This document shows, one piece after another, positions 2,841 through 36,646 of a stretch of DNA of 64,000 nucleotides. The DNA lies in assembly GCA_947626575.1 (NCBI GenBank), contig CANQSR010000006.1, forward strand, positions 1 through 64,000, read 5' to 3'. Position numbers and translations under genes: made by a program. The stretch's first letter is position 1. Every line of letters begins with the position of its first letter. Below the pieces are notes generated by a model. The model did no database searches, was not told the DNA's origin, and saw nothing but the letters and a program-made list of their open reading frames with translations. The stretch is from an uncultured Clostridia bacterium. GTDB taxonomy: Bacteria > Bacillota > Clostridia > Christensenellales > Borkfalkiaceae.

Positions 2841-2895
2841 GTTTTCGGATCGGCCCGGATATTTTATAAAATAGAACTATCTCTTTATGCTTTCG

Positions 2896-2931
2896 GGAAC
2901 CTCGCAAAAATTGCGAGGTTCCTTTATTTTT
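2896..2931 (+). terminator. intrinsic terminator after ribU
   Basis: GGAACCTCGCAA-N3-TTGCGAGGTTCC followed by TTTATTTTTAT. Confidence 0.8.
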
Positions 2932-3121
2932 ATCTTAGTTACTTGTATTGGGGTACGAGGAATGCTCTCGACAAGACGAATTGAACAATGTTACAATAAT
3001 GACATAAGAAATGAGTGCGCGAAACGCACGAATCACGGAGTGGAAAAAATGTAAAAAACAATAGGATAACCCGGTTCCGATGTCAAAAGCAAACGAAAAG
3101 GACCCATATAAGGAGGAGGAA

Positions 3122-3721
3122 ATGGTTGAAATGAAAGAAGAATTTTCAGAGCAGTACAGTTTGAAGAGAAACACGATCAACATTTTTGAGGCGATCACGT
3201 CGATGACGGCGGAACGTGTGATCGGCGAGCTGCAATATCTTGACGACAAGTTCCGCACGGATGAAGTACCGATGGAGGAGCGCATCATCACCATTCAGAT
3301 CGATAGCCCCGGCGGAAGCGTTTCGGACGGCCTCGCCATCTACGATACGATGAACTACATCGACGCAAAGATCGCAACGGTGGGGCTGGGGATGTGCGCA
3401 AGCATGGCGGCGTTCTTGCTCTCTTCGGGGACGCGCGGGATGCGCCGTGCAACCGAAAACTGCGAGATCCTCATCCACCAACCCCTCGGCGGGGCAAGCG
3501 GACAAGCCTCGGATATCATCATCGCCGCAAACCACATCGAACGTATCCGCGCAAGGCTCAACAAAATCATGGCCGAGAATACCGACCAACCAATCAGAAA
3601 GATCCAAAAAGACACCGACCGCGACACCATTATGAGCGCCGCAGACGCAAAAGCATACGGACTCATCGACGATGTCATCCCCGGCCGGAACAAAGCCAAA
3701 GGAGGGAACAGTGATGTTTGA
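3122..3721 (+). CDS. ClpP-like serine peptidase (ATP-dependent Clp protease proteolytic subunit family)
   Basis: IQIDSPGGSVSDGLAIYDTM, GLGMCASMAAFLLSSGTRGMR (Ser motif), EILIHQPLGGASGQASDI (His motif), DTIMSAADAKAYGLIDDVI. Alternative start at 3080. Confidence 0.9.
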   Translation: MVEMKEEFSEQYSLKRNTINIFEAITSMTAERVIGELQYLDDKFRTDEVPMEERIITIQIDSPGGSVSDGLAIYDTMNYIDAKIATVGLGMCASMAAFLLSSGTRGMRRATENCEILIHQPLGGASGQASDIIIAANHIERIRARLNKIMAENTDQPIRKIQKDTDRDTIMSAADAKAYGLIDDVIPGRNKAKGGNSDV

Positions 3722-5333
3722 CCATCTTACAGAAACTATGCTGAAAAGCTACTATATTGCAGAGAACACCGTCGGGCGTTTTAACCCGGATAAGCGGGCT
3801 TTGTTCTTCGTCTATGCCGATATCTTTCTCTTGGACAAAGAAGAGGCGGAACGCCTCTTTGCGCTATCTCAGACGCAAGAGGTGTTGGAGATCCAAAGCG
3901 AACAGGAATACCACCAATATCTGCGCATGAAGCAATACCTTTCCATGAACGCGCGCTCGCACAGGGAGGACTCCGAACTCGATGAGATCATCGACCTAAA
4001 AGGGACTGCTTTTGCGATGGCGCTCAACTTTCAACTCATGGTCAGCGCAAAGGATGCGCGCACCGTTGCCTGTGAAAATCTGACGATCGCCGCAGAGAAT
4101 GGTCTCGTGCTTGCGCTCAATGCGCTCGGCGTGTTGCAGTCGGAGGGGATCGTATTCCTGAAGGACAAGGAAAACGGGCGCAAGAAAATTCTTTGCGCGG
4201 CAGAGTGGAACAGTGAAGAGGGCCTGCTGGCGGCGCTTTACTATGACCCCATAAACCGCGAAAAATATCTCGAATGCCTGCAAGGCTGTCTTGTCCGCAT
4301 CGGACACGCCGAGGTGTTCGAGAGAGTTGTGGAACAGTACGGTCCGTACGTTAAGGGACGGCACGGGGAGTATAAACTTCTCGAAAAGGCGTTCCGTCAG
4401 GGGATCATCAAGCGGGACATGTATAATAAATCTTATGCCCGGCTCGTCTATTCGGAGATCCTCGGTGAACGAGACAAGGAAACGCTTGTTCTTACGCCGA
4501 ACAAAGAATTATTCGCAGAAGCAAGTTCGTTGCCCCTCAAACTCGGACATGGTACGGCCGAATTTCCCGCACAGGCGTTGGACGGGATCCGTCCCGACCA
4601 CCGTGAAGAATGCGACAAAGTGTTATGCGCGCTTGGAAACATTGACCTGAGAGCATTGGCGACCTACCGCCCGCTGTGCTTTGTTTCAGACAGCAAATAT
4701 ATGCTCGACTACTATGCGGCGGCGCTTTCCCGTTGCTTTAAGACCTCTCACGTGGAACGGATCGAGATCTGCGACCTTGTAGATTACGATTTCGAACCCA
4801 CCAAGAACAATATCTTCGTGCGCAGTTGCGATGAGGACGTATTTAACCTGTATCTGCTCGCATTCCGCGGGGAGATCCCGGAGAAAGCCTTCGATCACGT
4901 AAAGAACTTTTTGCAGAGCGGTACGCGCGGGAAATATCGGTTGAACCATCCCGGCGTTGTGCTGGACCTCTCTTCCGTGCTTCCCGTCTGCTTCGCCGAT
5001 AGGGAAAACGCCAAGAAATTGAAACAGTATTGCGACTTGATCCGCATAGCAGAACTTACCGCGAGAGAAAAGCGGCTGCTTACGGAAAAAGCCGTTCGGG
5101 AAAAGGCGGCCGTGTACGGCATGAATGAGCTTACGATGCAGGAAGGCCTTTCAGAGAAGCTCGCCGCATACGGCATGGACGAAATTGACAGGGCGATCGA
5201 CGACGCCGTGCGCGAACATCGCGCGAAAACGCTTTGTCTTACGGAATCCCTGGTACTGCCTTACATCGGAAGCATCGGGGCAAAACGAAAAGCATATGGC
5301 TTTGGAGGAAGCATCCATGACGATCACGAATGA
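3714..5333 (+). CDS. Sel1-like / degenerate AAA+-like protein, ClpP cassette component
   Basis: Strong SD GGAGGG; Sel1-like helical repeat pattern (AENGLVLALNALGVLQSEGI...KENGRKKILCAAEWNSEEGLLAALYYD); C-terminus resembles an AAA+ sensor-1/lid region but without a recognisable Walker A. Confidence 0.55.
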   Translation: MFDHLTETMLKSYYIAENTVGRFNPDKRALFFVYADIFLLDKEEAERLFALSQTQEVLEIQSEQEYHQYLRMKQYLSMNARSHREDSELDEIIDLKGTAFAMALNFQLMVSAKDARTVACENLTIAAENGLVLALNALGVLQSEGIVFLKDKENGRKKILCAAEWNSEEGLLAALYYDPINREKYLECLQGCLVRIGHAEVFERVVEQYGPYVKGRHGEYKLLEKAFRQGIIKRDMYNKSYARLVYSEILGERDKETLVLTPNKELFAEASSLPLKLGHGTAEFPAQALDGIRPDHREECDKVLCALGNIDLRALATYRPLCFVSDSKYMLDYYAAALSRCFKTSHVERIEICDLVDYDFEPTKNNIFVRSCDEDVFNLYLLAFRGEIPEKAFDHVKNFLQSGTRGKYRLNHPGVVLDLSSVLPVCFADRENAKKLKQYCDLIRIAELTAREKRLLTEKAVREKAAVYGMNELTMQEGLSEKLAAYGMDEIDRAIDDAVREHRAKTLCLTESLVLPYIGSIGAKRKAYGFGGSIHDDHE

Positions 5334-7029
5334 ACTCTTAAACGGGTATGAAAATACCAAATACTACCACTATGATGAACTCGGCGAAGCCTTTCCGAAC
5401 AGCTTTTGGTATGACGAGCTTCCGGAACATGAGGTGACCGGCGTACTGAAATCATGCCGCTATGTAAACGGGCGGCTCCTGCAAACCTACTCGGAGAAGG
5501 ATAACCACGTCGGCGTGATCGCGGCGACCCGGCTGGGAAAGACGACTTCCTATGTCATTCCCACCGTGCAGTCTTTTGCGCGGGCAAAGAACAAGAAGAG
5601 CATGATCGTTTCCGACCCCAAGGGGGAGATCTTCCGCCACACGGCGGCCATGCTCCGCAAGGAAGGCTATACCATCCTGTTCCTCAACTTCCGCGACTAT
5701 AAACATTCCGAATGCTGGAATCCGCTGACGCCCATCTACCGGAAATACCATTCGATTTTCGATGTTTACAATGAGATCGAGGTCGTAGATACGGAGAACG
5801 GTCCGCGCAACCGGTTGCGCGGGAAGATATATGAAAACCAGGCCGAACTCGACGAAGAGCTGGAACAATGGGAAAATCTCATGATGGAAGAGGTCGGGAA
5901 CGATATCGACGATCTTGCGACCATGATCGCGCCCACCTGCAAACAAACGGACCCGTATTGGGAGGATAGCGGCCGCGAACTTCTCAAAGCATTCATTTGG
6001 GGCATGCTCGAAGATAGCCGCCCCGAATTATTGGGAGATTCGGGCAGAACGCAGATCACGGAAGAGACCTTTTCCTTCGCAACGATCATCACGCTCATGG
6101 GGCTTTTGAACAAGTCCGAAGTGGATTTCGACGGAGGGTATTTCACCGAACGCCCCAAGACGTCCCGCGCCTATCAGATCGAAAAGGCGACCATCCCCGT
6201 AAACGCACAGACTACCCGCCAATGTATCACGAGCGTATTCAGTTCGCAGATGTCCATCTTCCGCGAATGCGCGATGCGCCTCGTCACGAGTTGTAACTCT
6301 TTCGATATGAATATCCTCACGGAGGACAAGCCCGTTGCGCTGTTTATTGACTACCGCGACGAACTCAAAGTGCATTTTAAGGTCATCAGCCTCTTCATTC
6401 AGGACGCCTATCGTCTCCTCATCGAACATGCCAATCGTCAACCCGACGGGAAGCGGAAAATTCCCTTTTACTTCATTCTCGATGAGTTTGGCAACTTCCC
6501 GCCCATGAATGACTTTGAAACCACGATTTCCGCCTGTGCAGGAAGGAACATCTTCTTTATTCTGATCGTTCAGTCCTATGCGCAGCTCAACAGCGTGTAC
6601 GGCGATGCGGTCGCGGCCATCATAAGGGACAATCTCAATATGCACATCTTCTTCGGCTCAAACAATCCGCAGACTCTCGAAGAATTTTCGAGGGAATGCG
6701 GTCAATATACGCGGGTAGCCCCCGCGTCTGCCCTGAACGGGAAGGGGGCGGAGATGGATTACTACCAATTTGAAACCATCCAGCTGATCCCCAAGAGCAT
6801 GCTTGCGCACTTTTCCCCCGGCGAGTGCATCGTGACGGAGGCAAACTGCGGATACGTGCTTTTCTCCAAGCTGGAACGCTACTATCTCTGCAAGGAATTT
6901 ACCGATATGCCGCTTTCCGACGAAAAAGAGTATAGCGGGGCGGCGAATCCGTTTGACAAGAAATACATCTATCACCTTTCGGAAAAAAACAGCGGCAAAC
7001 ATTCATGGAAAAGCATATTTGACTTATAA
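5317..7029 (+). CDS. VirD4/TraG-type (T4CP-like) ATPase without N-terminal TM segment
   Basis: Walker A-like GVIAATRLGKTTSYVIPTVQ, SDPKGEIFRHTAAMLRKEGY, Walker B FILDEFGNFPPMNDFETTISACAGRNIFFILIVQSYAQL, IRDNLNMHIFFGSN: characteristic of VirD4/TraG-family ATPases. SD GGAGGAA before ATG 5317; overlaps the previous ORF. Confidence 0.85.
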   Translation: MTITNELLNGYENTKYYHYDELGEAFPNSFWYDELPEHEVTGVLKSCRYVNGRLLQTYSEKDNHVGVIAATRLGKTTSYVIPTVQSFARAKNKKSMIVSDPKGEIFRHTAAMLRKEGYTILFLNFRDYKHSECWNPLTPIYRKYHSIFDVYNEIEVVDTENGPRNRLRGKIYENQAELDEELEQWENLMMEEVGNDIDDLATMIAPTCKQTDPYWEDSGRELLKAFIWGMLEDSRPELLGDSGRTQITEETFSFATIITLMGLLNKSEVDFDGGYFTERPKTSRAYQIEKATIPVNAQTTRQCITSVFSSQMSIFRECAMRLVTSCNSFDMNILTEDKPVALFIDYRDELKVHFKVISLFIQDAYRLLIEHANRQPDGKRKIPFYFILDEFGNFPPMNDFETTISACAGRNIFFILIVQSYAQLNSVYGDAVAAIIRDNLNMHIFFGSNNPQTLEEFSRECGQYTRVAPASALNGKGAEMDYYQFETIQLIPKSMLAHFSPGECIVTEANCGYVLFSKLERYYLCKEFTDMPLSDEKEYSGAANPFDKKYIYHLSEKNSGKHSWKSIFDL

Positions 7030-7039
7030 GGAGAGCAGT

Positions 7040-8407
7040 ATGGTGGAATATCAGGAACTTTTGGATTATGTCAAGGGGCAGCGAACGGTAACGATCCCCG
7101 AACTGCAAAGGCTGTTTTCGTCGGACTATCTGACGATCGCAAAGAACGTACATAAGATGGTTTCCGAGGGCGTGCTTGAACTCGGAACGGGCGTACAGTA
7201 CTCCGTTTTACAGAAAAACCGGGCGGACCGTTTAACCCATATATCCGATGAGGTGGACGATCTCGAAAAACAGCGCGCTGCTTTGGAAGAGCGCAGGCGG
7301 GAGATCCTCAGGCGCATGCGTGAAAGCATCAGGGAGGAAGTCGTCAATAATGATGATGACGACGATGATGACGACGAGGACGATGACGATGGCGAATTGG
7401 AGGTGGAGCCGCTCGACGGCTCCGAGGACGGCGATGAAGATGCGGACGATGAAGATGCGGACGATGAAACTCCGCCCGAAGTACAAGCCATCTCCCAAGC
7501 GGTCGGAGAAGGGGTATCCGTCAGCCGATCGGACGGGGAATATTATCTTGTTCCGGAAGGGCTGGAAACGGAAGGGTCGGAGGTTCGCTTTCAGATCCTT
7601 ACCCGCGATGACGGCGTCTATCTTTCGGACGGCGGGCTTGCCCTGCTTTCACTCGGAAACAACGTCTCTTTTGACAGCGAGGGCATCGATGAACAAATCG
7701 GCTGCATCGTAGACCGCTATGATGTCAGCGTTGTGGGGGACGAACTCAGGATCAAACTCGTTTCCCCCGAAGATGCCGTGCCGTGTATGTTCCGTCTCTT
7801 TGCCGCGATGGAGCGCATCATAACGATCAATGAAGAGGACGTCGCCGATTGCCTTGCATACAAGAAAGCGGAGGACAAGATTTGGGATGCCGCGAAGGAG
7901 CTTTTGGTTGCCAAACCGGGAATGGGGTTCCGTGAGCTTGTTTTAGGCATGCGGGAGCGCTATGAAGGCGTGAAGGACGGCGAAAACATCGATGATATCC
8001 TCGTCTATGCAGGTGGCGTGAAAAAATTTACGAAGATGTCCGAAGAAGAATATCAACAGAACCGCGCCGGCCTCTTAGGGGCAAAACAGTCACAGAATGA
8101 TACCCCCAAAGACGAAGGGGCGGATCGTTCTCCCGCAGAGGCCGATGCCGCAAATCCCGCGGAGAAAGATGAGCAAGAACCCGTAAATCCCGTGTATATC
8201 AAGGCTTTGGCGACCGTGATCCAAGAAGGCAAGGTGTCCTTATCCTTTGTACAGCGCAACTGTTGCGTAGGATATGCCCATGCCGAGAAGATCATTTCAT
8301 GGATGGAGCGCATGGGGTATATATCTCCCTTCGATGAAATCACCCGAACGCGAAGGGTGCTTATGACAAAAAGGCAATTTATCAAAAAATACGGAAAATT
8401 TCAATGA
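7040..8407 (+). CDS. winged-helix protein with FtsK-gamma-like domain, Asp-rich linker and DUF1828-like domain
   Basis: C-term NPVYIKALATVIQEGKVSLSFVQRNCCVGYAHAEKIISWMERMGYISPF resembles FtsK gamma; N-term VTIPELQRLFSSDYLTIAKNVHKMVSEGVLEL is also wH-like; middle EYYLVPEGLE...DDGVYLSDGGLALLSLG is DUF1828-like; DDDDDDDDEDDDD linker. Confidence 0.6.
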   Translation: MVEYQELLDYVKGQRTVTIPELQRLFSSDYLTIAKNVHKMVSEGVLELGTGVQYSVLQKNRADRLTHISDEVDDLEKQRAALEERRREILRRMRESIREEVVNNDDDDDDDDEDDDDGELEVEPLDGSEDGDEDADDEDADDETPPEVQAISQAVGEGVSVSRSDGEYYLVPEGLETEGSEVRFQILTRDDGVYLSDGGLALLSLGNNVSFDSEGIDEQIGCIVDRYDVSVVGDELRIKLVSPEDAVPCMFRLFAAMERIITINEEDVADCLAYKKAEDKIWDAAKELLVAKPGMGFRELVLGMRERYEGVKDGENIDDILVYAGGVKKFTKMSEEEYQQNRAGLLGAKQSQNDTPKDEGADRSPAEADAANPAEKDEQEPVNPVYIKALATVIQEGKVSLSFVQRNCCVGYAHAEKIISWMERMGYISPFDEITRTRRVLMTKRQFIKKYGKFQ

Positions 8408-8420
8408 CAAGGAGGAAGCC

Positions 8421-8723
8421 ATGATAAATATCTTAGATGTGTTGCTCGATAAGGATGATAGGGACCCCATTCGGCTTGCGGATAGCAAAGGCCGCGAACT
8501 TCTTTTCGAGCAGGTAGCCATAATCCCGCACGATGATAAAATTTACTGCATATTGAAGCCCATAACCCGCATAGAAGGCGTTGCCGATGACGAGGCCATC
8601 GTCTTTTATGTGGATGAGTCGTCGGCGGAATCGCCCGTTCTCATGGTGGAGACCAATGAGCTTACGGCGATCGATGTGTTTGAAGAGTATTACGATCTGC
8701 TTGAAAAGGACAAAAAGAAATGA
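8421..8723 (+). CDS. DUF1292-like small acidic protein
   Basis: LLDKDDRDPIRLADSKGRELLFEQVAIIPHDDKIYCILKPI...DDEAIVFYVDESS resembles DUF1292; SD AAGGAGG. Confidence 0.6.
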   Translation: MINILDVLLDKDDRDPIRLADSKGRELLFEQVAIIPHDDKIYCILKPITRIEGVADDEAIVFYVDESSAESPVLMVETNELTAIDVFEEYYDLLEKDKKK

Positions 8724-9252: not shown

Positions 9253-9271
9253 TGATCGCATGAGAATGATC

Positions 9272-9940
9272 ATGAGTACGCGCAAACCCAAAATATCTAT
9301 TTTAGGCGATTCCATTTCCACGTATGAGGGCTATCAGCCCTATGGATATTCCGTCTATTACCGGGACGACAGGCTTTATGACAACGAACTTGAAAGCGTA
9401 GAGGACACTTGGTGGATGCAAGTGATCGGTGCGCTCGGCGGGGAACTCTATATCAACGATTCCTTTTCCGGCAGCACGGTCGCGGGGATGTTTTTCCCGT
9501 CCGCTTGCAGCGACGAACGTTGTTCTGCCTTAGGCGCCGAAGATGCCCCCGATATGATTTTCGTTTATATGGGAACCAACGATCGGGGGCTTTCGGTCCC
9601 GCTCGGCATGGAAAATCCCGCGGATCCGAACGGCTTCTATGGCGCATACCGGCAAATGTTGAAAAAAATCAAGCTGAATTATCCGTCCGCGAAGATCGTC
9701 TGTGCGACCCTGCCGGCGGGACGCTTGCAAGAAGGCGATGCGGGAGGATACGATGAGGATACGGGCTACAACGAGGCAATAGCAAGGGCTGTTGCCGAAG
9801 AAGGGTGTATGCTGGCGGATATTGCCGCCTTCGGCAAACGCTATGAGACATTGGATGCTTGTCATCCGACGCGGGCAGGGCACAAAACGCTCGCCGGTTT
9901 TTGGCTCAAAGCGCTTGGTTTATCGGGAGAAAACATATGA
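9272..9940 (+). CDS. SGNH/GDSL hydrolase family protein
   Basis: KISILGDSISTYEGYQP ... DMIFVYMGTNDRG ... DACHPTRAGHKTLA. Confidence 0.85.
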   Translation: MSTRKPKISILGDSISTYEGYQPYGYSVYYRDDRLYDNELESVEDTWWMQVIGALGGELYINDSFSGSTVAGMFFPSACSDERCSALGAEDAPDMIFVYMGTNDRGLSVPLGMENPADPNGFYGAYRQMLKKIKLNYPSAKIVCATLPAGRLQEGDAGGYDEDTGYNEAIARAVAEEGCMLADIAAFGKRYETLDACHPTRAGHKTLAGFWLKALGLSGENI

Positions 9941-10845
9941 AAGAGAGAGAAATTACGAAACAATTACGCATGTGTATTGAAAACGCATTCGGATGCTGTT
10001 TGGATGAAGTGGGGGAAGGCGAATGCGAAGACGGAGAAATGTTCTTTTCGGACGGAGATTTTCATATCGTCCTGCACGATGGAAGATTGTGTAAAACAAC
10101 TTACGCCGCAGAGGATTTTTTGATGATCCGCTTTCGGCGGGAAGAGGACCCCGTTGATCCGTATGTTGTGATCTATATGAAGAACGGGGATAGGCTGTAT
10201 TATTATAATTTTGAGTGGGCGGATTATTTCAAGACGGCGTGGATGCTCAACCGCGTGGGGCAGCCCTCGCTCAACGATGATGCGCTCGTCGATTTCTTCG
10301 AAGCACAGCGAAATACCGAGAAGCAAGTGCGCTCCCGCACCGTCCCCCAAGGCATCGATGTAATCGAATACGAAGAAGCCCATCAAGAGCAAGTCAAGGA
10401 TCTGCTCGTCGAACTTCAAACATATCTTGCGTCCTTGGACGACAGGGGAGTTCTCGTTCTGAAAGAAAATTATCGCGAGGACTACTTCGCGTATCTCATG
10501 GGCGAGATGGAAAAACACGAAGGAAAGATGTTTCTGGCGCGCGGCGCAGACGGGGCGGCGGGACTCGTCGTTTGCAAGATCTTTCAAGGGGGCGGGGAAC
10601 ACGACATCACCACCTCCTGCCCGAAGATCGGTTTCATCAGCGACTTGGTCGTGACCGAAAAAGAGAGGGGCAGGGGGATAGGAACTGCGCTCCTCACCGC
10701 CGCCGAGAAATATTTTGCAGAGCGTGAATGTGCCTACGCGCAGCTTGAAGTATTCGCGCCCAATACGGCTGCAAGACGGCTCTATGAAGATTTCGGGTTC
10801 AAGACAAATTGTCTTTATTTATCGAAGAGGACGGAAGCGGTATGA
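9937..10845 (+). CDS. GNAT N-acetyltransferase with additional N-terminal domain
   Basis: GFISDLVVTEKERGRGIGTALLTAAEKYFAERECAYAQLEVFAPNTAARRLYEDFGF; about 140 aa N-terminal domain of unknown type. Confidence 0.8.
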   Translation: MKEREITKQLRMCIENAFGCCLDEVGEGECEDGEMFFSDGDFHIVLHDGRLCKTTYAAEDFLMIRFRREEDPVDPYVVIYMKNGDRLYYYNFEWADYFKTAWMLNRVGQPSLNDDALVDFFEAQRNTEKQVRSRTVPQGIDVIEYEEAHQEQVKDLLVELQTYLASLDDRGVLVLKENYREDYFAYLMGEMEKHEGKMFLARGADGAAGLVVCKIFQGGGEHDITTSCPKIGFISDLVVTEKERGRGIGTALLTAAEKYFAERECAYAQLEVFAPNTAARRLYEDFGFKTNCLYLSKRTEAV

Positions 10846-11528
10846 TTTTTATCACAGGCGACACGCACGGCCAAAGTGACTTTGCAAAACTTCTCTATTT
10901 CGCGGATGCGCATCCGGGGCTTACGAAGAAGGATCATATGATCATCGCCGGGGATTTCGGCGGCGTATGGAGCGAGCGGGGGTTGGAGACGACGCTTTCC
11001 ATGTATGCCCGCCTGCCGTTCACCACGCTGTTCGTGGACGGCAATCACGAAAACTTCGATATGCTGGGCGCTTATCCCGTGGAAATTTGGAACGGAGGAA
11101 AGGTGCATAAAATCAGCCCGGACATCATTCATTTGATGCGCGGACAGGTATTCGAGATCGAGGGGAAGACCTTCTTCACCTTCGGCGGCGCAACGAGCAT
11201 CGACCGATATTTGCGTACGGAGGGAAGCAGTTGGTGGCCGCAGGAACTGCCCACCTTTGAGGAACTCGACGAGGGGATTGCCAATTTGAAGCGGTATAAC
11301 AATCGAGTAGATTTCATCGTCACGCATTCCTGTGATGAAAAGGCTTTGTGGTATCCGCCGCTTCGGGAGCGGGGCGTCAAAATGGAGACATTCCCCGAAA
11401 ACCGGATGCTATCGCTGTTTGAGGACACCGTCCAATACGGGCATTGGTATTTCGGACACTATCACATGGACGGTGCCTTGACCGAAAATAAGACTGTGCT
11501 ATATCAAAAAATCGTTCGTCTCGGTTAG
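10842..11528 (+). CDS. metallophosphoesterase
   Basis: MIFITGDTHGQ, MIIAGDFGGVWS, LFVDGNHENFDML, FIVTHSCDEKA, YFGHYHMD. Confidence 0.85.
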   Translation: MIFITGDTHGQSDFAKLLYFADAHPGLTKKDHMIIAGDFGGVWSERGLETTLSMYARLPFTTLFVDGNHENFDMLGAYPVEIWNGGKVHKISPDIIHLMRGQVFEIEGKTFFTFGGATSIDRYLRTEGSSWWPQELPTFEELDEGIANLKRYNNRVDFIVTHSCDEKALWYPPLRERGVKMETFPENRMLSLFEDTVQYGHWYFGHYHMDGALTENKTVLYQKIVRLG

Positions 11529-11972: not shown

Positions 11973-14900
11973 ATGAAGAAGAAACTTTGGACCGTGTTAC
12001 TTACGGTCCTCACGGTTCTATGCCTCAGCCTCGGCCTCGCGGCCTGCGGCGGATTGCGCCCCAATCCCGGCTTTTCTGAAGCGGAGTATTCACTCAATTA
12101 CAAACTCAATGAAGACAAAGCGAGCTATTGCGTTGGCGGGATCGGAACGTGGCGAGACACTGATCTCGTGATCCCTGCAGAATACAATGGGAAGCCCGTG
12201 ACCTCGATTGGGGAGGCGGCGTTCTATGGTTGTAAGGAGCTAACGAGCGTAACCATCGGAAGCGGCGTGACGGTAATTGGAGACGAGGCGTTCTATAATT
12301 GTAGTGGGCTGACGAGTATTGAGATCCCCGCAAGTATGACCTCAATCGGAGGGAGCGCGTTCAGTGGTTGTAGTGGGCTGACGAGTATTGAAATTCCCGA
12401 TAGCGTGACCTCGATTGGATATGGTGCGTTCTTTTATTGCAGTGGGCTGACGAGCGTAACGATTGGGAGCGGCGTGACGGCGATTGGAGAGTGGGCGTTC
12501 TCTGATTGTAGCAAGTTACAGAGCGTAATGATCGGAAACGGCGTGGCTTCGATTGGAAACGGTGCGTTCTATGGATGTAGTGGGCTGACGAGTATTGAAA
12601 TCCCAGACAGCGTGACTTCAATCGGAGATAAGGTGTTCTCTGATTGTAGCAAGTTACAGAGCGTAACGATCGGAAACGGCGTGACCTCGATCGGAAACGG
12701 TGCGTTCTATGGATGTAGTGGGCTGACGAGTATTGAAATCCCTGATGGCGTGACTACGATCGGATATAGTGTGTTCGAGGATTGCAACAATATTCAGTCG
12801 GCCACCATACCGACGGCCATGATTTCGTATATTCCTCACGGGTCGTTGAAAACGGTTGTTTTAACAAGCGGGATGATTAAAGATGGTGCATTCAGGGGCT
12901 GTAGCGGACTTGAAAGCGTGACGATCGGGAGCGGCGTGACCTCGATTGGATACGAAACATTCTATGGTTGTAGCGGGTTGACGAGTATTACAATACCCGA
13001 TAGCGTGTCCTCAATCGGAGATTCTGCATTCTTTGGTTGTAGCAAGTTACAGAGCGCAACGATCGGGAGCGGCGTGACCTCAATTGGAGAGGAGGCGTTC
13101 TCTGGTTGCAGCGGACTTGAAAGCGTAATGATCGGGAGCGGCGTGACCTCGATCGGACATGGTGCGTTCGAGGATTGCAACAATATTCAGTCGGCCACCA
13201 TACCGACGGCCATGATTTCGTATATTCCTCACGGGTCGTTGAAAACGGTTGTTTTAACAAGCGGGATGATTAAAGATGGTGCGTTCTCTGATTGTAGCGG
13301 GCTGACGAGTATTACAATGCTCAATAGTGTGACCTCGATTGGAGGATCGGCGTTCGCTGGTTGTAGCGGGCTGACGGGAGAATTAACGATCCCCGACAGT
13401 GTGACTTCGATTGGAGGATCGGCGTTCGCTGGTTGTAGCGGGTTGACGGGAGAATTAACGATCCCCGACAGCGTGACCTCAATCGGAAGCTATGCGTTCG
13501 AGAATTGCAGCGGGCTTGAAAGCGTGACGATCGGAAACGGCGTGACCTCAATCGGAAGCCATGCGTTCGAGAATTGCAGCGGGCTTGAAAGCGTTATTTG
13601 GAATGCGGAAAATTGCACTGATGCAGGGGGGTGGTCATATGGTAAGGATTATACGATTTTCAGAAATTGTACAAATTTGAACACTATGGCCTTTGGAGAA
13701 AGCGTAAAAACAGTTCCCGCATATGCGTTCAGTGGTTGTAGTGGGCTGACGAGTATTGAAATTCCCGATAGCGTGACCTCGATTGGAAATGGTGCGTTCT
13801 TTTATTGCAGTGGGCTGACGTGCGTAACGATCGGGAGCGGCGTGACCTCAATTGAAGCGTGGACATTCGCTGGTTGTAGCGGGCTGACGAGTATTGAGAT
13901 TCCCGATAGCGTCACCACAATCGGAGAGCAAGCATTCTATAATTGTAGCGGGCTTGAAAGCGTAACGATCGGGAGCGGTGTGACTTCGATCGAAAGTTTG
14001 GCATTTTATCAAACAGCTTATTATAATGATATTGACAATTGGGAGAACGGAACTGTTCTATACATTGAAGATTACCTTATTAAAGCCAATGATACAATTT
14101 CCGGAAATTATTCCATTCGCGATAATACAAAGGTGATTGCAGATGAGGCGTTCCATGAATGTAGCGGGCTGACGGGTGTGACGATCCCCGACGGCTTGAC
14201 CTCAATCGGTGTTTCGGCGTTCTATGGTTGTAACCGGCTGACGAGTATTGAGATACCCGATAGCGTGACCTTGATTGGAGGAGCGGCGTTCTATGGTTGT
14301 AGCGGGCTGACGGGAGAATTAAAGATCCCCGACAGCGTGACCTTGATTGGAAGGAGAGCGTTCCATAATTGTAGGGGGCTGACGAGTATTACAATACCCG
14401 ATAGCGTGTCTTCAATCGGAGATTCTGCGTTTTCTGATTGTAGCAAGTTGCAGAGCGTAACGATCGGGAGTGGCGTGACCTCGATCGGATATGGTGTGTT
14501 CGAGGATTGCAACAATATTCAGTCGGCCACCATACCTGCGGCCATGATTTCGTATATTCCTCACGGGTCGTTGAAAACGGTTGTTTTAACAAACGGGATG
14601 ATTAAAGATGGTGCGTTCGCCGGTTGTAGCGGGCTTGAAAGCGTGACGATCGGAAACGGCGTGACCTCGATCGGAGAGAGCGCGTTCAGTGGTTGTAGCG
14701 GGCTGACGGGAGAATTAAAGATCCCCGACAGCGTGACCTCAATCGGAAGCTATGCGTTCGAGAATTGCAGCGGGCTTGAAAGCGTAACGATCGGAGACGG
14801 CGTGACCTCGATTGGAGGATCGGCGTTCGCCGGTTGTAGCGGGCTGACGGGAGAATTAAAGATCCCCGACAGTGTGACCTCAATCGGAAGCTATGCGTTC

Positions 14901-15536
14901 GAGGATTGTAGCGGGCTTGAAAGTGTGACGATCGGGAGCGGCGTGACTACGATCGGATATGGTGCGTTCGAGGATTGCGGCGGGCTGACGAGCATTGAGA
15001 TTCCCGATAGCGTGACCTCGATTAGAGGAGCGGCGTTCCATCAGTGTAGCGGGTTGACGAGTATTACAATTCCCGATAGCGTGACCTCGATCGGAGAGTT
15101 GGCGTTCGGTGGTTGTAGCGGGCTGACAAGTATCGAAATCCCTAACGGCGTGACCTCAATCGGACAACAGGCGTTCTATGGTTGCAACGGGCTTGAAAGT
15201 GTGACAATTGGAAGCGGCGTGACCTCAATCGGAAATTATGCGTTCTATGGTTGTGAAGGGCTGACGAGCATTACGATTCCAGAAAGTGTGGTTTTGATTA
15301 GAGATGGGGCGTTCTATGATTGTAGTGGGCTGAAAAATATCTATTATAAGGGAACGCCCGAAGCATGGAACAATATTTCGATTGACAATTACGGCAATTA
15401 CAATTTAACCGATGCCACGCGGTATTACTTCTCCGAGGGGGAACCCGATGAGGCGAAGTGGCAGGAGAGCGAGTATTGGTGGCACTATGACCCCGAAACA
15501 TCGCTTCCCACCCCGTGGGAGAAGAAAGAACCGTAA
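11973..15536 (+). CDS. BspA-like leucine-rich-repeat (LRR_5) surface lipoprotein, 1187 aa
   Basis: Lipobox MKKKLWTVLLTVLTVLCLSLGLAACGG; about 40 repeats of the type GAFxGCSGLTSIxIPDSVTSIG. Confidence 0.95.
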   Translation: MKKKLWTVLLTVLTVLCLSLGLAACGGLRPNPGFSEAEYSLNYKLNEDKASYCVGGIGTWRDTDLVIPAEYNGKPVTSIGEAAFYGCKELTSVTIGSGVTVIGDEAFYNCSGLTSIEIPASMTSIGGSAFSGCSGLTSIEIPDSVTSIGYGAFFYCSGLTSVTIGSGVTAIGEWAFSDCSKLQSVMIGNGVASIGNGAFYGCSGLTSIEIPDSVTSIGDKVFSDCSKLQSVTIGNGVTSIGNGAFYGCSGLTSIEIPDGVTTIGYSVFEDCNNIQSATIPTAMISYIPHGSLKTVVLTSGMIKDGAFRGCSGLESVTIGSGVTSIGYETFYGCSGLTSITIPDSVSSIGDSAFFGCSKLQSATIGSGVTSIGEEAFSGCSGLESVMIGSGVTSIGHGAFEDCNNIQSATIPTAMISYIPHGSLKTVVLTSGMIKDGAFSDCSGLTSITMLNSVTSIGGSAFAGCSGLTGELTIPDSVTSIGGSAFAGCSGLTGELTIPDSVTSIGSYAFENCSGLESVTIGNGVTSIGSHAFENCSGLESVIWNAENCTDAGGWSYGKDYTIFRNCTNLNTMAFGESVKTVPAYAFSGCSGLTSIEIPDSVTSIGNGAFFYCSGLTCVTIGSGVTSIEAWTFAGCSGLTSIEIPDSVTTIGEQAFYNCSGLESVTIGSGVTSIESLAFYQTAYYNDIDNWENGTVLYIEDYLIKANDTISGNYSIRDNTKVIADEAFHECSGLTGVTIPDGLTSIGVSAFYGCNRLTSIEIPDSVTLIGGAAFYGCSGLTGELKIPDSVTLIGRRAFHNCRGLTSITIPDSVSSIGDSAFSDCSKLQSVTIGSGVTSIGYGVFEDCNNIQSATIPAAMISYIPHGSLKTVVLTNGMIKDGAFAGCSGLESVTIGNGVTSIGESAFSGCSGLTGELKIPDSVTSIGSYAFENCSGLESVTIGDGVTSIGGSAFAGCSGLTGELKIPDSVTSIGSYAFEDCSGLESVTIGSGVTTIGYGAFEDCGGLTSIEIPDSVTSIRGAAFHQCSGLTSITIPDSVTSIGELAFGGCSGLTSIEIPNGVTSIGQQAFYGCNGLESVTIGSGVTSIGNYAFYGCEGLTSITIPESVVLIRDGAFYDCSGLKNIYYKGTPEAWNNISIDNYGNYNLTDATRYYFSEGEPDEAKWQESEYWWHYDPETSLPTPWEKKEP

Positions 15537-30840: not shown

Positions 30841-31042
30841 GATCGTCTCCCATTATAGCACGGATCCCGCCCGCTGTAAAGGGGATGGGGGCGGCGCGCC
30901 GCGCCGCCGCGCAAAGTTCTGCGAATTTTGGCGAATGGGAAAAATTTTCCAAACATACGCTCGTATCCTTGCTTTTCTGTTTGGAAAATGGTATAATGCC
31001 CCTGTATCTGCGCAATGATTTTTGATACGGGTAAGGATAGAT

Positions 31043-34000
31043 ATGGCGATCAGAAAGAGAAAATTGAACAGCGAAAAAGTGGCGCTCGAATTGCGCTTTC
31101 CCCAATACGTCGGCTATGCCGACTACTTTTTGCAGACCTCCGTCTCCATACAGGTCAAGAGCAGTTTCGAGGAAGCTCTTCCGCTCACGGTCACCGTCGA
31201 GAGCGGGGAGGGCCTCGTTGTGCCGTATGAGGAGAAGATCGAAGTCCCCTTCGAGAGCGCCGTCGTTCTCGAACCCAAAAATATCTTTTCGCCCGTGTAT
31301 CTCGCCGAATGCAACGAGATATGCAGGGCGGCCGTCCGCGTGACGGCGAAAAACGAAGGCAAGGAGATCGCCGCGGCAACTGCGGAGATCACCGTGCTTC
31401 CCTTCGACTTTTGGGAGGGCCTCACGGGCAATGCCGAGCGCATCGCGACCTATGTGCGCCCGCGCATCGCCGATTGCTCCGTCGTTCTGCAAGAGGCGGG
31501 GAAGCGGTTGAAAAAGTGGCGCGAGGACGCCGAATTTTACGGCTATACGGGGGCGGATAAGAACGCCGTGCGGCAGATCATCGCCGCCATTTTCGCATCG
31601 CTCCGCGCCGCCGGCATCGAGAACGACGGCGAACCCGACCTCTACCTTCCCGCCCTCGCGGCGCGCGAAACTTCCATCTTGAAGGACCGACGCGCCACGC
31701 CCTTCCAGCTCGCCCTGTTTGCGGCGGCCTGCCTCGAAGCGGTGCATCTCCACCCCGTCATCGCCGTGGGGAGAAGCGGCCTCGGCGTGGGCGTATGGCT
31801 ATACGACAGCTGTTTCCTCGACGCCGTCACCGACGATTGCGACCTCGTGGGCAAGTATATCTCCGAGGGCATCAATAATCTGAGTTTCTTCGACGTCGAG
31901 GACCTCTTCCTCGATAAAAACGTCGCCTATACCCCCTCCGAGAAGCATTTCAGGGAAAAGTTGGGCGAGGGGTATTACGAATGCTTTGTGGATATTAGGC
32001 GTTGCCGCATGGGGGGCGTCGCCGTCTGTCCCATGCGCGGACGCGGCCTCAAAGGGTTCGAGATCTACCGTGAAGAGGAGATGTCTCCCGAATCCGCCCC
32101 CGCGCCGCTGCCCGTATTCAAGGATCTGAAACTCGACGGCAAACAGCCCAAGAACAAGCAGTGGGAGCGGCGGCTCCTCGATCTCACCACGAAAAACCCG
32201 TTGCTCTCCTTTTCGGGCAAGAACGCCCTGCACCTCGCCGAGGCGGATTGCGACGAACTCTATTGCAGCCTCTCCGCGCAGGAGACGATGAAGCTCAAAG
32301 CGGACGGCCGCGAAGAGGCTCCCTTCGGCGCGGGAACGACGACGCAAAAACACGACCTCAACTCCCTCGAACGGCAGAAGGGCATCCTGCGCGCGCTCAC
32401 CGATGCGCGTTCTGCGCAGGAGACGGCGGTAAAGCTCATGCGGAAGAACCGCGAGGCGGTGGAAGAATCGGGTGCGCGCATCCTCTATCTCGCGCTCGGA
32501 TTCCTGCGCTACCTCGGCAAGGACGACGGCCTTCCCAAACACGCGCCCATCGTCCTCGCGCCCGTCGGCCTCGCGCGCGCCAAGGGCGGGGAGGATTTCT
32601 CCGTCTCCGCGTCCGAAGAGGGGTACTTCGTCAACGCCACCCTGCTCGAATTTTTGAAGCAGGAGTTCAACATCGATATCCGCGGCCTCGGCGGGGACGT
32701 CACGGGCCTGAAAATTTCCGAGATCATCGCCATGGTGCGCGCCGAGACGGCGGCCATGAAGGGCTGGGACGTCACGTCCGACGTCTATCTCTCCGCCTTC
32801 TCCTTCCAGACCTTCCTCATGTGGAACGACATCCGCACGCGCATCGACGAATTCCGCAAAAACGCGACGGTCGCCGCCCTCTTCGAGGGACGGGCGCAAA
32901 AGCAGGAACTCCCCGTGCCGAAGGAGGAGGATACGGCCGATCCTGAGGAAGTCCTGTTGCCGCTTCCCGCCGATAGTTCGCAGTTTTCCGCCATCGCGCT
33001 TTCGGACACGGGTGCCTCGTTTGTCCTCCACGGCCCTCCCGGAACGGGCAAGAGCCAGACCATCACCAACATCATCGCAAACGCCCTCGTGCAGGGAAAG
33101 AAGGTCCTCTTCGTCGCCGAAAAGAAGGCCGCGCTCGACGTCGTCAAGAAGCGGCTCGACGCCATCGGCATCGGCGATTTCTGCCTCGAACTGCATTCGG
33201 GAAAGACGGATAAGGCGGGGGTATTGAAGCGCATCGAGGATACGCTCGCCCTCGCGGGAACGGCGGAGGAGGTCTCCTTCGGCGAGAGAACGCGCGAACT
33301 CGTCGCCCTCCGGGAGGAACTCAAAGAACCCATGCGCGCCCTTCATATGAAGCGCCGCCTCGGCATCTCCGTCTATCAGGCCATCCTCGAATATCTCAAA
33401 AACAAGAACGCGCCCGATATCCTCGATATCGAGAGTTCTTTCTATGATACGCTCACCGAGAAGAAGCTCTCCGAGTGCAAGACGATGATCCTCGCGGCGG
33501 CTTCCGCGGCCAAAGAGTGCGGCGGGGTGTTCAATTCTCCCTTCGAAAACGTCAATCTCACGGAGTATTCGCAGGAACTCCGCGACCGCGTCTATTGCGC
33601 CTCCGAGGTGATGCTCGCCGAGATCAGGCATCTGAAATCCTTTTTGGGGCTTTTCCTCGAATTTTACCGCCAGCGCGTCTCCACGCTCACCCGCAAGAAA
33701 CTCACCTCCATCGCGGCCATCGCCCGCGGGCTTGCTTCGGGCAAATACGAGAAGTACTTTTACGGCGTCAAGGAGGACGCCTTCTATACCTTCTTCAACG
33801 CCAACAAGCGTCTCGATGCGGCACTCGCCTATTACTATAAACACTTCAAGGTCCTCGTGGACCTCGAAGGATGCGAGGTGGTGGGGCGCTATATGGAGCT
33901 GGGCGGCGATTGGAAACTCTACCGCCCCGCGAAGAACCTCGTCAAAAAGCTGATGCGCGCCGCCCTGCACGAGATCTCCGAAGAGGACGTCCCCAAGTAT

Positions 34001-36646
34001 TTGCAGACGGCCGTCGATATCGACGCCGCCATCCGCCGCATCACGTCCTGCACACAGCTCTCCAAGAACTTCACCGACCGCGCGGGCCATATCGTGTTCA
34101 AGAAGCGCGCCGATTTCCTCGCCGACCTCGAATCTCTCCATGCGCTCGCCGCGGAGAGCTTCCTCGATTACAACGCCGATGCCTTCAACGGCATGTGCAT
34201 CCGCGCGGCGAACGGCTATACCGCCCCCGTCCTCGAAGGGTATTTGAAGGCCACGGAGAGCTATTTCGCGGCCGAGGAGAGCTTTTTGGACGTCATCCAT
34301 GCGGACAGGAGCAAACTGCGCGAGGACGACATGCCCGACTATTTCTCCGCCAAGGCTTCCGCGCTCATCGACAACGTGGACATGCTCCCCAATTGGTGCA
34401 TGTATCGCGCTACGGCGCAAAAGTTGGCGGGATACGGCCTGACCTTTATCACCGATTCGCTGGAAAGCGGCCGCCTCAAAGTGGAGAATATTCTTGCGGG
34501 ATTTGAAAAGAACGTCTATAAGAATTTTCTGGAAATCAACATCCCCGCCGACCCCGCGCTCTCGCGCATGACGGTGGGGACGCTCGAAGAGACGGTGGAA
34601 AAATTCCGCCTCGCGTGGGAAGAATACGGCAAGATCACGCGCGCCTGTATCCGCGCCAAGCTCATCTCCCGCCTGCCCAAGGCGGACGACGAGGGGAGTT
34701 TCTCGCTCGAACTCGCCGCGTTTACGCGGCTCTCCAAATCCAACTTGCGCGGCGCGGGCATCCGCAGTCTGCTCGCGGAGATCCCCACGCTTTCCTCCGT
34801 GGTATGCCCCTGCCTTCTGATGAGTCCCATCACGGTGGCGCAGTATTTGAAGCCGGAGGCCAACAGCTATGACCTCGTCATCTTCGACGAGGCCTCGCAG
34901 ATGTCCACGGCGGAGGCCATCGGCTCCATCGCGAGGGCCAAGTCGGCAGTCATCGTGGGCGACCCCAAACAGTTGCCGCCCACCGTGTTCTTCCACTCCA
35001 CCTATGTGGATGAGGACGACCTCGAAAACGAGGACCTCGAAAGCATCCTCGACGACTGCCTCGCCCTCGGTATGCCGGAGCGGCATCTCAAATGGCATTA
35101 CCGCAGCAAGCACGAGTCGCTCATCGCCTTCTCCAACAGCATGTATTACGACAACCGCCTGTGTACCTTCCCCTCGCCCGATGCGCTCGAAAGCAAGGTA
35201 AAATTGATCCTCGTGGACGGCGTTTACGACAGGGGCTTTACCAAGCGCAATAAAAACGAGGCCGAGGCGCTCGTCAAGGAAGTCGTGCGGCGGCTCTCCG
35301 ACCCCGTCCTCTCCCGTTCGAGCATGGGGATCGTCACCTTTTCCAGCGTCCAGCGCGACGACATCGAACGCTTGCTCACCAAGGAGATCGTGGCGCGGCA
35401 CCTCGATGCGGCGGCTTACGACCGCGAAGAGCCGCTCTTTGTCAAGAACCTCGAAAACGTGCAGGGCGACGAGCGCGACGTCATCCTCTTCTCTGTCTGT
35501 TACGGTCCCGACCGTCTCGGCAAAGTATCCCTGAATTTCGGGCCTCTGAACCAGGCGGGCGGCTGGCGGCGTCTCAACGTCGCCGTCTCGCGCGCAAGGG
35601 AGGAGATGCTCGTTTTCTCCACCATGACGGCCCCCATGATCGACCTCGCCAAAACTTCGTCGAAGGGCGTCGCGGGCCTCAAAGCCTTCCTCGAATTCGC
35701 CGAGAAGGGCCGCACGACGCTCGCCGTCCGTTCAAGCACGGTGCGTCCGGGGACGGGGATCGGGCGGTATATCGCCGAAGAGCTTTCGGGGTACGGCTAT
35801 GACTGCCGCGCCGACGTGGGCGCCTCGGATTTCAAGCTCGACGTGGCCGTCGTCGACCCCGCCGACAGGCACCGCTTCATCCTCGGCATCCTCTGCGACG
35901 GCGACGATACCTTCTCCGTGAAGGATAGAAACATGTTGCAGGTGCAGACCTTGAAGCGCAGCAATTGGAACGTCATGCGCATCAATTCCGTCAATTACTA
36001 CAACAACCCCAAGCGCGAACTCAAACGCATCAAGGACGTCTTGGACCGCCTCACGGGCAAGGATAAGAACGCGGAAGCGCGTCTCGCGCGTTTCAGAAAG
36101 CCGTACCGCTCTGTCAAGAATACGGGCATGGAGACGGCAGTCTTTGTGACGGGCGGCGAAAACGACGCGGAGATCATGGCGCGGCTCAAAGAGATCGTGG
36201 CGGTGGAGGAACCCATTTCGCGCGCCTTCCTCAGAAAACGCTGCCTTGCAACGTTCGGCATCGCCAAGAGCGGCACCCGCGTGGACGCCCGCCTCGATGC
36301 GCTCATCGACGGATGCGCCTTCCAGCGCGACCGCGTGATGGGGGTGGATTATTTCTACAAGAACCCCAAGGCCATCCTGCCCGGAAAATTCCGCGTGGAG
36401 GAGGGGGAGGCCCTGCGCCGCACGGAGGAGGACTTCACCGTCTATGAGATGGTGTCCCTCATCAAGGGTGCGCTCGAAGAGCGCGTCGCGCTCTATATGG
36501 ATGAACTCGCCGCCGTCGTGACGGGGATGTTCAAGGAACTCCGCCCGTCCGAACGCCTCACGGCGTTTCTCGGCAACTGCGTTGCGTATGGGGAGGAGAA
36601 GGGGATATTTGTGAAGTCCGTCTCAGACAGAGTTAGCTTGGCATAA
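31043..36646 (+). CDS. DUF4011-type SF1 helicase with C-terminal REase-like domain and DUF3320-like tail (about 1867 aa)
   Basis: WERRLLDLTTKNPLLSF (DUF4011), GPPGTGKSQTITNIIANAL (Walker A), IFDEASQMSTAEAIG (Walker B), GDPKQLPPT, WHYRSKHESLIAFSN, NVQGDERDVILFSVCYG, VAVSRAREEMLVFS; C-term VGASDFKLDVAVVDPADRHRFILGILCDGD. Confidence 0.88.
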   Translation: MAIRKRKLNSEKVALELRFPQYVGYADYFLQTSVSIQVKSSFEEALPLTVTVESGEGLVVPYEEKIEVPFESAVVLEPKNIFSPVYLAECNEICRAAVRVTAKNEGKEIAAATAEITVLPFDFWEGLTGNAERIATYVRPRIADCSVVLQEAGKRLKKWREDAEFYGYTGADKNAVRQIIAAIFASLRAAGIENDGEPDLYLPALAARETSILKDRRATPFQLALFAAACLEAVHLHPVIAVGRSGLGVGVWLYDSCFLDAVTDDCDLVGKYISEGINNLSFFDVEDLFLDKNVAYTPSEKHFREKLGEGYYECFVDIRRCRMGGVAVCPMRGRGLKGFEIYREEEMSPESAPAPLPVFKDLKLDGKQPKNKQWERRLLDLTTKNPLLSFSGKNALHLAEADCDELYCSLSAQETMKLKADGREEAPFGAGTTTQKHDLNSLERQKGILRALTDARSAQETAVKLMRKNREAVEESGARILYLALGFLRYLGKDDGLPKHAPIVLAPVGLARAKGGEDFSVSASEEGYFVNATLLEFLKQEFNIDIRGLGGDVTGLKISEIIAMVRAETAAMKGWDVTSDVYLSAFSFQTFLMWNDIRTRIDEFRKNATVAALFEGRAQKQELPVPKEEDTADPEEVLLPLPADSSQFSAIALSDTGASFVLHGPPGTGKSQTITNIIANALVQGKKVLFVAEKKAALDVVKKRLDAIGIGDFCLELHSGKTDKAGVLKRIEDTLALAGTAEEVSFGERTRELVALREELKEPMRALHMKRRLGISVYQAILEYLKNKNAPDILDIESSFYDTLTEKKLSECKTMILAAASAAKECGGVFNSPFENVNLTEYSQELRDRVYCASEVMLAEIRHLKSFLGLFLEFYRQRVSTLTRKKLTSIAAIARGLASGKYEKYFYGVKEDAFYTFFNANKRLDAALAYYYKHFKVLVDLEGCEVVGRYMELGGDWKLYRPAKNLVKKLMRAALHEISEEDVPKYLQTAVDIDAAIRRITSCTQLSKNFTDRAGHIVFKKRADFLADLESLHALAAESFLDYNADAFNGMCIRAANGYTAPVLEGYLKATESYFAAEESFLDVIHADRSKLREDDMPDYFSAKASALIDNVDMLPNWCMYRATAQKLAGYGLTFITDSLESGRLKVENILAGFEKNVYKNFLEINIPADPALSRMTVGTLEETVEKFRLAWEEYGKITRACIRAKLISRLPKADDEGSFSLELAAFTRLSKSNLRGAGIRSLLAEIPTLSSVVCPCLLMSPITVAQYLKPEANSYDLVIFDEASQMSTAEAIGSIARAKSAVIVGDPKQLPPTVFFHSTYVDEDDLENEDLESILDDCLALGMPERHLKWHYRSKHESLIAFSNSMYYDNRLCTFPSPDALESKVKLILVDGVYDRGFTKRNKNEAEALVKEVVRRLSDPVLSRSSMGIVTFSSVQRDDIERLLTKEIVARHLDAAAYDREEPLFVKNLENVQGDERDVILFSVCYGPDRLGKVSLNFGPLNQAGGWRRLNVAVSRAREEMLVFSTMTAPMIDLAKTSSKGVAGLKAFLEFAEKGRTTLAVRSSTVRPGTGIGRYIAEELSGYGYDCRADVGASDFKLDVAVVDPADRHRFILGILCDGDDTFSVKDRNMLQVQTLKRSNWNVMRINSVNYYNNPKRELKRIKDVLDRLTGKDKNAEARLARFRKPYRSVKNTGMETAVFVTGGENDAEIMARLKEIVAVEEPISRAFLRKRCLATFGIAKSGTRVDARLDALIDGCAFQRDRVMGVDYFYKNPKAILPGKFRVEEGEALRRTEEDFTVYEMVSLIKGALEERVALYMDELAAVVTGMFKELRPSERLTAFLGNCVAYGEEKGIFVKSVSDRVSLA

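Follow-up and report, generated by a model that had tools for sequence, protein, structure and literature searches.

A clostridial gene cassette joining a second ClpP to a Lon-like protein and a VirD4-like ATPase: a candidate proteolytic machine

Gene content and distribution of the cassette

A stretch of 64,000 nucleotides from an uncultured bacterium of the Clostridia (contig CANQSR010000006.1 of assembly GCA_947626575.1; hereafter the window) carries five tightly packed genes on one strand (Table 1). They encode a ClpP peptidase, a predicted Lon-type AAA+ protein (the product of 3714-5333, here named B), a VirD4/TraG-like ATPase, a winged-helix protein of FtsK descent (the product of 7040-8407, here named W) and a small DUF1292-like protein. 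We propose, with confidence that is evenly balanced, that the products form a proteolytic machine of the cytosol in which ClpP works with a dedicated partner complex of a non-standard kind. The initial annotation had pointed to the five same-strand reading frames, and all of them were recovered; neighbouring genes overlap by 8 and 17 bases at the first two junctions and stand 10 and 13 bases apart at the last two. The genes probably constitute one operon, and the terminator-like hairpin and promoter-like site that lie just ahead of the ClpP gene are consistent with this. The cassette ClpP (Pfam ClpP, E 1e-58) is the second ClpP of the genome; a separate housekeeping ClpP adjoins ClpX in the same assembly (1.9 Mb, 35 contigs).

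Pfam matches bear out the domain labels first given to the ClpP, the coupling-type ATPase and the FtsK gamma domain. The DUF1292 assignment is marginal, as its score (23.5 bits) lies below the cut-off of 24. The DUF1828 label found no match in the window W; the sole match, in one relative (locus L027), is weak and below cut-off (E 0.004), so that this label is tentative.

Table 1. Features of the cassette and its upstream region in the window
Feature	Position	Strand	Remarks
Terminator-like hairpin	2895-2923	+	13-bp stem, T-rich tail; ends upstream gene
Promoter-like site, candidate operon promoter	2968-2997	+	TCGACA-18-TACAAT, TG before -10; consensus match only
Cassette ClpP	3122-3721	+	upstream in-frame ATG at 3080 is an alternative start
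B	3714-5333	+	Sel1-like repeats (~115-175), predicted Lon-type AAA+ region without Walker A (~300-505), putative C-terminal docking tail
Y-G-F-G-G tail motif of B	5295-5309	+	resembles the ClpP-docking motif of ClpX
VirD4/TraG-like ATPase	5317-7029	+	without transmembrane helices; own subfamily accompanying B
Walker A of VirD4-like ATPase, AATRLGKTT	5521-5547	+	GKTT invariant in 16/16; starts at residue 69
Walker B of VirD4-like ATPase, LDEFGN	6478-6495	+	invariant in 16/16
W	7040-8407	+	FtsK-derived winged-helix protein; window copy has lost the motor domain
N-terminal winged helix of W, gamma-like	7061-7195	+	in 35/36 W; profile-profile E 1.2e-7 to C-terminal gamma
C-terminal FtsK gamma domain of W	8186-8368	+	PF09397, E 9e-16
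DUF1292-like small protein	8421-8723	+	optional accessory

The gene set recurs within the host's order, among uncultured gut bacteria. Homologues of B were found in 15 of 101 close relatives of the host and in 37 of the 396 genomes of the order, spread over 16 of its 142 genera. A total of 43 genomes had matches, six of them short Sel1 cross-hits only; Sel1-only cross-hits (L106-L108, proteins of ~800 amino acids) were taken out of the B counts. Beyond the order, 388 genomes from the class and 398 from the phylum yielded, besides the window's own B, only Lon, Sel1-type or spurious matches, and viral contigs, phages and plasmids gave no match to B. A contig scan with a single B sequence as query found only one near relative. 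Within one genus B is patchy (13 of ~60 genomes), and the B copies of one genus do not form one clade (approximately unbiased test, p ~1e-48); the gene set has thus been either transferred among lineages or lost repeatedly.

These relatives are loci from metagenome-assembled genomes, incomplete in places, with genes called by a simple script. Of 55 B loci, 48 have the VirD4-like gene on the same piece of sequence, 32 have ClpP and 13 have DUF1292, and the B gene abuts or overlaps the VirD4-like gene in most of them. Seven loci lack the VirD4-like gene. Two of them are cut short by the end of the contig; in the five remaining genomes a gene of the same VirD4 subfamily lies at another site, with a W gene after it in every case. 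Among the close relatives, VirD4 matches of at least 907 bits (17 matches) occur in exactly the 15 genomes that bear B, the next best match scoring 327 bits; the VirD4 of a diverged member of the order (L098) scores much lower. Since this subfamily tracks B, the unlinked cases with a following W included, B, the VirD4-like ATPase and W are the obligate core of the system. What had been annotated as a five-gene cassette is therefore a conserved core of three genes, in which ClpP and DUF1292 are not obligatory. Its chromosomal setting varies among genomes, and conservation in dozens of genomes excludes chance as the cause.

A conserved HTH regulator of ~110 residues with a cysteine cluster often lies just upstream of ClpP or B (L025, L030, L032, L033, L037, L070, L076-L078, L085, L102) and is a candidate operon regulator; in the window no such gene was seen immediately ahead of the cassette.

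B as a putative adaptor of ClpP

A single-sequence Pfam search with B gave no match. A profile built from 49 diverse B sequences matched Sel1-repeat structures in the PDB over residues ~115-175 (best E 2e-12) and Lon AAA+ structures over residues 395-503 (E ~1e-4). Profile-profile comparison of the C-terminal half with Lon of the same order gave E 1.7e-6 over residues ~300-520, covering the AAA+ domain and lid; none of the controls, 20 column-shuffled profiles and a reversed one, scored better than E 0.24. ClpX was considered as the ancestor of B and rejected in favour of Lon (profile-profile E 0.27). The Lon alignment sets 'LCFVSDSKYMLDYYAAALSRCF' of B onto the P-loop region of Lon. No Walker A P-loop is present in any of the 49 aligned B proteins (no GK[ST] at the P-loop position), and for this reason B, a Lon-type AAA+ protein as judged from its profile, is not expected to bind ATP in the usual manner. 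The description of B as a degenerate AAA protein thus holds, with Lon as the match.

B is the unexpected centrepiece of the system, for the annotation had overlooked its C-terminal tail, which resembles a ClpP-docking motif. ClpX docks ClpP through an I/LGF motif. The window B ends in YGFGG and the host's own ClpX loop reads LGFGG. A G-F pair occurs within the last 35 residues of all 49 B proteins, compared with 1 of 36 W, 1 of 16 VirD4-like and none of 28 ClpP sequences, and the most diverged B members retain only hydrophobic-G-F at their end.

The catalytic triad of the cassette ClpP (S94/H119/D168) is invariant in 28 aligned ClpPs and the peptidase is predicted to be catalytically intact. 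Residues at E. coli positions 62, 112 and 114 (precursor numbers Y76, F126, L128) belong to the lining of the binding pocket for IGF loops and acyldepsipeptides (ADEPs) (PMC6853987). The window copy has Q, R and T at these positions (Y62Q, F112R, L114T), and the canonical hydrophobic docking pocket is absent. Comparison with 29 housekeeping ClpPs from the same genomes gave the same picture: position 62 is Q in 25 of 27 cassette ClpPs versus Y in 29/29 housekeeping enzymes, position 112 is R, S, A, K or C in 27/27 versus mostly F or Y, and position 114 is T in 23/27 versus L in 29/29. An origin of this ClpP from a phage head-maturation protease was rejected; PHROG matches are weaker than those to cellular ClpP models, and B itself has no viral or phage match.

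The first residue of the tail varies with the ClpP complement of the genome. Aliphatic I/LGF tails are found in 11 of 16 B proteins from genomes with housekeeping ClpP only and in 1 of 33 that have a second ClpP, counted as present anywhere in the genome (Fisher 1.6e-6). The tails that accompany a second ClpP are Y/FGF, with an aromatic first residue, as in the window. The ClpP of the single exception (L100, an aliphatic tail with a second ClpP) keeps L114 and has F at 62. A tree-based two-trait Markov model favours dependent over independent change (likelihood ratio 18.4, 4 degrees of freedom, p 0.001). As each trait changes only seven times, this covariation is good but not final evidence.

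The tail could instead be unrelated to ClpP, a structural C-terminus or some other docking peptide. Its position at the C-terminus, not in a loop as in ClpX, would fit this, as would five exceptions to the covariation, B proteins that keep Y/FGF tails in genomes without a second ClpP. It is exactly hydrophobic-G-F, however, that the most diverged members keep, and the residue before it tracks a second ClpP whose own pocket is changed, and we regard an unrelated tail as quite improbable. Judging from these patterns, the tails of B likely dock into the apical pockets of ClpP.

The VirD4-like motor, W and the proposed machine

The VirD4-like protein matches Pfam T4SS-DNA_transf (E 3e-47), and its nearest family is the CD1115-type coupling proteins (NCBIfam NF045973), with 234.4 bits, under the cut-off of 250. 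The annotation had described it as lacking N-terminal transmembrane helices, and no transmembrane stretch was found anywhere in it (maximum 19-residue Kyte-Doolittle mean 1.39). It is thus predicted to be a soluble ATPase of the HerA/FtsK superfamily with an intact P-loop. The pairing of a soluble motor with a dedicated protease, put forward at the outset, is supported.

Kinship with CD1115-type coupling proteins, together with the ordinary VirD4 genes that host genomes also carry, might suggest that the set is a remnant of an integrative conjugative element, domesticated or in decay, in which a former coupling protein has kept some leftover neighbours. This option of the initial annotation is largely refuted. 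The Walker motifs are invariant, the proteins form a distinct subfamily set apart by a wide gap in bit score, and the transmembrane region is missing; B matches no plasmid or phage, and the set is conserved across 16 genera and is not peculiar to one genome. No relaxase, mating-pore, type IV secretion system (T4SS) or integrase family is among the 25 commonest recurrent families per set (272 flanking proteins), so that homologues are probably not confined to complete conjugative elements. We reject the conjugative remnant as very improbable. Recurrence and flanking families support a conserved system outside conjugative elements, one for which the open-licence PMC literature yielded no earlier description and no work on VirD4 with ClpP.

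W bears wings at both ends, an amendment to the description first given of it. The C-terminal gamma is recognisable in fewer W proteins than the N-terminal wing, and an acidic run is present in 25 of 36. The RecA-type FtsK motor is absent from the window W; it is intact in W of three relatives (L022, L023, L025), a fourth has a matching P-loop (L070) and the motor is degenerate in L031/L032. The ancestor of W was a complete protein of FtsK type, whose motor the window copy has lost. Mean identity among W proteins is 26%, compared with 67% among the VirD4-like proteins; this makes W the fastest-evolving part, as expected of a recognition subunit. At a locus without ClpP, a stand-alone Clp_N domain protein adjoins W (L033:13033-13464).

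We propose that B is a dedicated dead-AAA+ adaptor that would serve ClpP, its GF tails docking into the apical pockets. In this scheme the Y/FGF tail would pair orthogonally with the cassette ClpP, and in strains without a cassette ClpP the I/LGF tails would use the housekeeping enzyme. Because B is predicted to be unable to bind ATP, and because the window cassette encodes no intact ATPase other than the VirD4-like protein, the VirD4-like ring is the proposed source of force, directly or through B; coupled to ClpP by B, it would act as unfoldase and translocase. That the ring powers ClpP through B in this way we put slightly below even. W may bring in DNA or a DNA-bound target, which would make the client a nucleoprotein, possibly of an invading element; this step is rather unlikely on present indications. 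The strongest form of the model, in which ClpP has the VirD4-like ring itself as its unfoldase (a non-AAA+ motor of the HerA/FtsK superfamily, with a dead Lon-type adaptor that carries docking tails and FtsK-gamma wings that aim at DNA-bound targets), is offered tentatively.

Several points weigh against this machine. With Q, R and T the rebuilt pocket has lost hydrophobicity; docking may therefore follow a mode other than that of ClpX, or the ClpP ring may be of mixed composition. The independent-pairs test gave 3-4 concordant and 0 discordant of 5, which is suggestive and alone not significant, and to this the five tail exceptions must be added. At least one third of loci lack an adjacent ClpP, which is thus not obligatory in cis. 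AlphaFold models of B and of the VirD4-like protein, with one relative in the alignment, were unusable (pLDDT ~33). Contact between VirD4 and B, and movement of protein rather than DNA, are not apparent from sequence, and a direct contact of ClpP with VirD4 is not established.

The components could alternatively make up a DNA-translocating machine, a VirD4-like ring guided by the wings of W. ClpP and B would then have a regulatory role only, with no mechanical coupling of motor to protease, and B would deliver W, the VirD4-like protein or a repressor to ClpP for turnover. In a variant, the VirD4-like protein and W would translocate DNA, with B and ClpP acting on whatever is encountered. Gamma domains read DNA in FtsK, and W has such domains, some relatives retaining the full FtsK motor; the VirD4-like gene always neighbours W, whereas ClpP can be missing and B can lie elsewhere. 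On the other side, B was never found without VirD4 and W in the tested genomes, and its gene usually touches that of VirD4. So constant a partner of the motor is unlikely to be a mere regulator, and we consider DNA translocation unlikely.

Whichever mechanism applies, the purpose may be conflict with phages or plasmids, with the fast-evolving W as sensor. Patchiness within one genus, transfer between families and the rapid evolution of W make a defence role plausible, and some neighbours resemble conflict genes (a TIR-methyltransferase, a set with a trypsin-like peptidase and an AAA ATPase). Against this, the five proteins match no PADLOC system, the VirD4-like protein alone giving a weak match to the VirD4/mad8 ATPase; the flanks hold mostly ordinary metabolic genes, in which defence-library matches are scattered and mostly generic ATPases. 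The defence role raised by the initial annotation is not established, and we entertain it as a possibility on the doubtful side of even.

To our knowledge, AAA+ unfoldases of the ClpX, ClpA or ClpC type drive every bacterial ClpP. If true, the ClpP-based machine proposed here would mean that regulated proteolysis can be powered or addressed in a new manner, and that the coupling-protein fold has a new use. In the pairing of tail and pocket, nature may also have supplied an orthogonal set of ClpP and partner.

Other genes were noted around the cassette. Downstream in the window (9266-11528) lie genes for an SGNH hydrolase, a GNAT protein and a metallophosphoesterase, all or some of which are again found with the cassette in L022 and L024; the phosphoesterase also accompanies it in L029, L033 and L075, and the trio may be travelling cargo. 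At L028:13555-14844 a TIR domain fused to a methyltransferase is encoded next to the cassette. L023, L024, L028 and L091 share a recurrent neighbour set (families f20 and f21, AAA ATPase f12 and trypsin-like peptidase f8), possibly another conflict cassette. Elsewhere in the window, 31022-36646 (+) encodes a protein of 1874 residues with DUF4011, an AAA_11/AAA_12 helicase and an MTES_1575 nuclease, a candidate conflict-type helicase-nuclease, and 11973-15536 and 41646-47564 encode BspA-type leucine-rich-repeat surface proteins.

Comparison with known systems

The closest parallel is with ClpXP and ClpCP, which the cassette resembles in its ClpP, predicted to be intact, and in a partner whose hydrophobic-G-F motif is almost the same as the loop of host ClpX (YGFGG and LGFGG). 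It differs in that the AAA+ region of the partner is of Lon type and has no P-loop, the motif sits in a tail at the C-terminus, the pocket of ClpP has been reshaped and the sole intact ATPase of the window cassette is VirD4-like. Lon itself is matched, by profile, by residues ~300-520 of B over the AAA+ domain and lid; unlike Lon, B lacks Walker A and the Lon protease domain and has Sel1-like repeats on its N-terminal side.

The VirD4-like ATPase belongs to the same Pfam and NCBIfam ATPase family as the VirD4/TraG proteins of CD1115 type from clostridial conjugative elements and has intact Walker motifs. In contrast to them, it lacks transmembrane helices, scores below the family cut-off and is always found with B and W, and neither T4SS nor relaxase genes are among the commonest recurrent neighbours of the cassette. 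W shares with FtsK and SpoIIIE the C-terminal gamma wing, with a gamma-like wing at its N-terminus, and relatives keep the alpha and motor domains; the motor is lost, however, in the window W and most relatives, an acidic linker is present, and the protein is paired with VirD4, B and ClpP. Finally, organisms with two ClpPs, such as the mycobacterial or chlamydial ClpP1P2, also possess a second ClpP besides the housekeeping one, whereas the second ClpP described here resides in a patchily transferred operon with partner proteins of its own.

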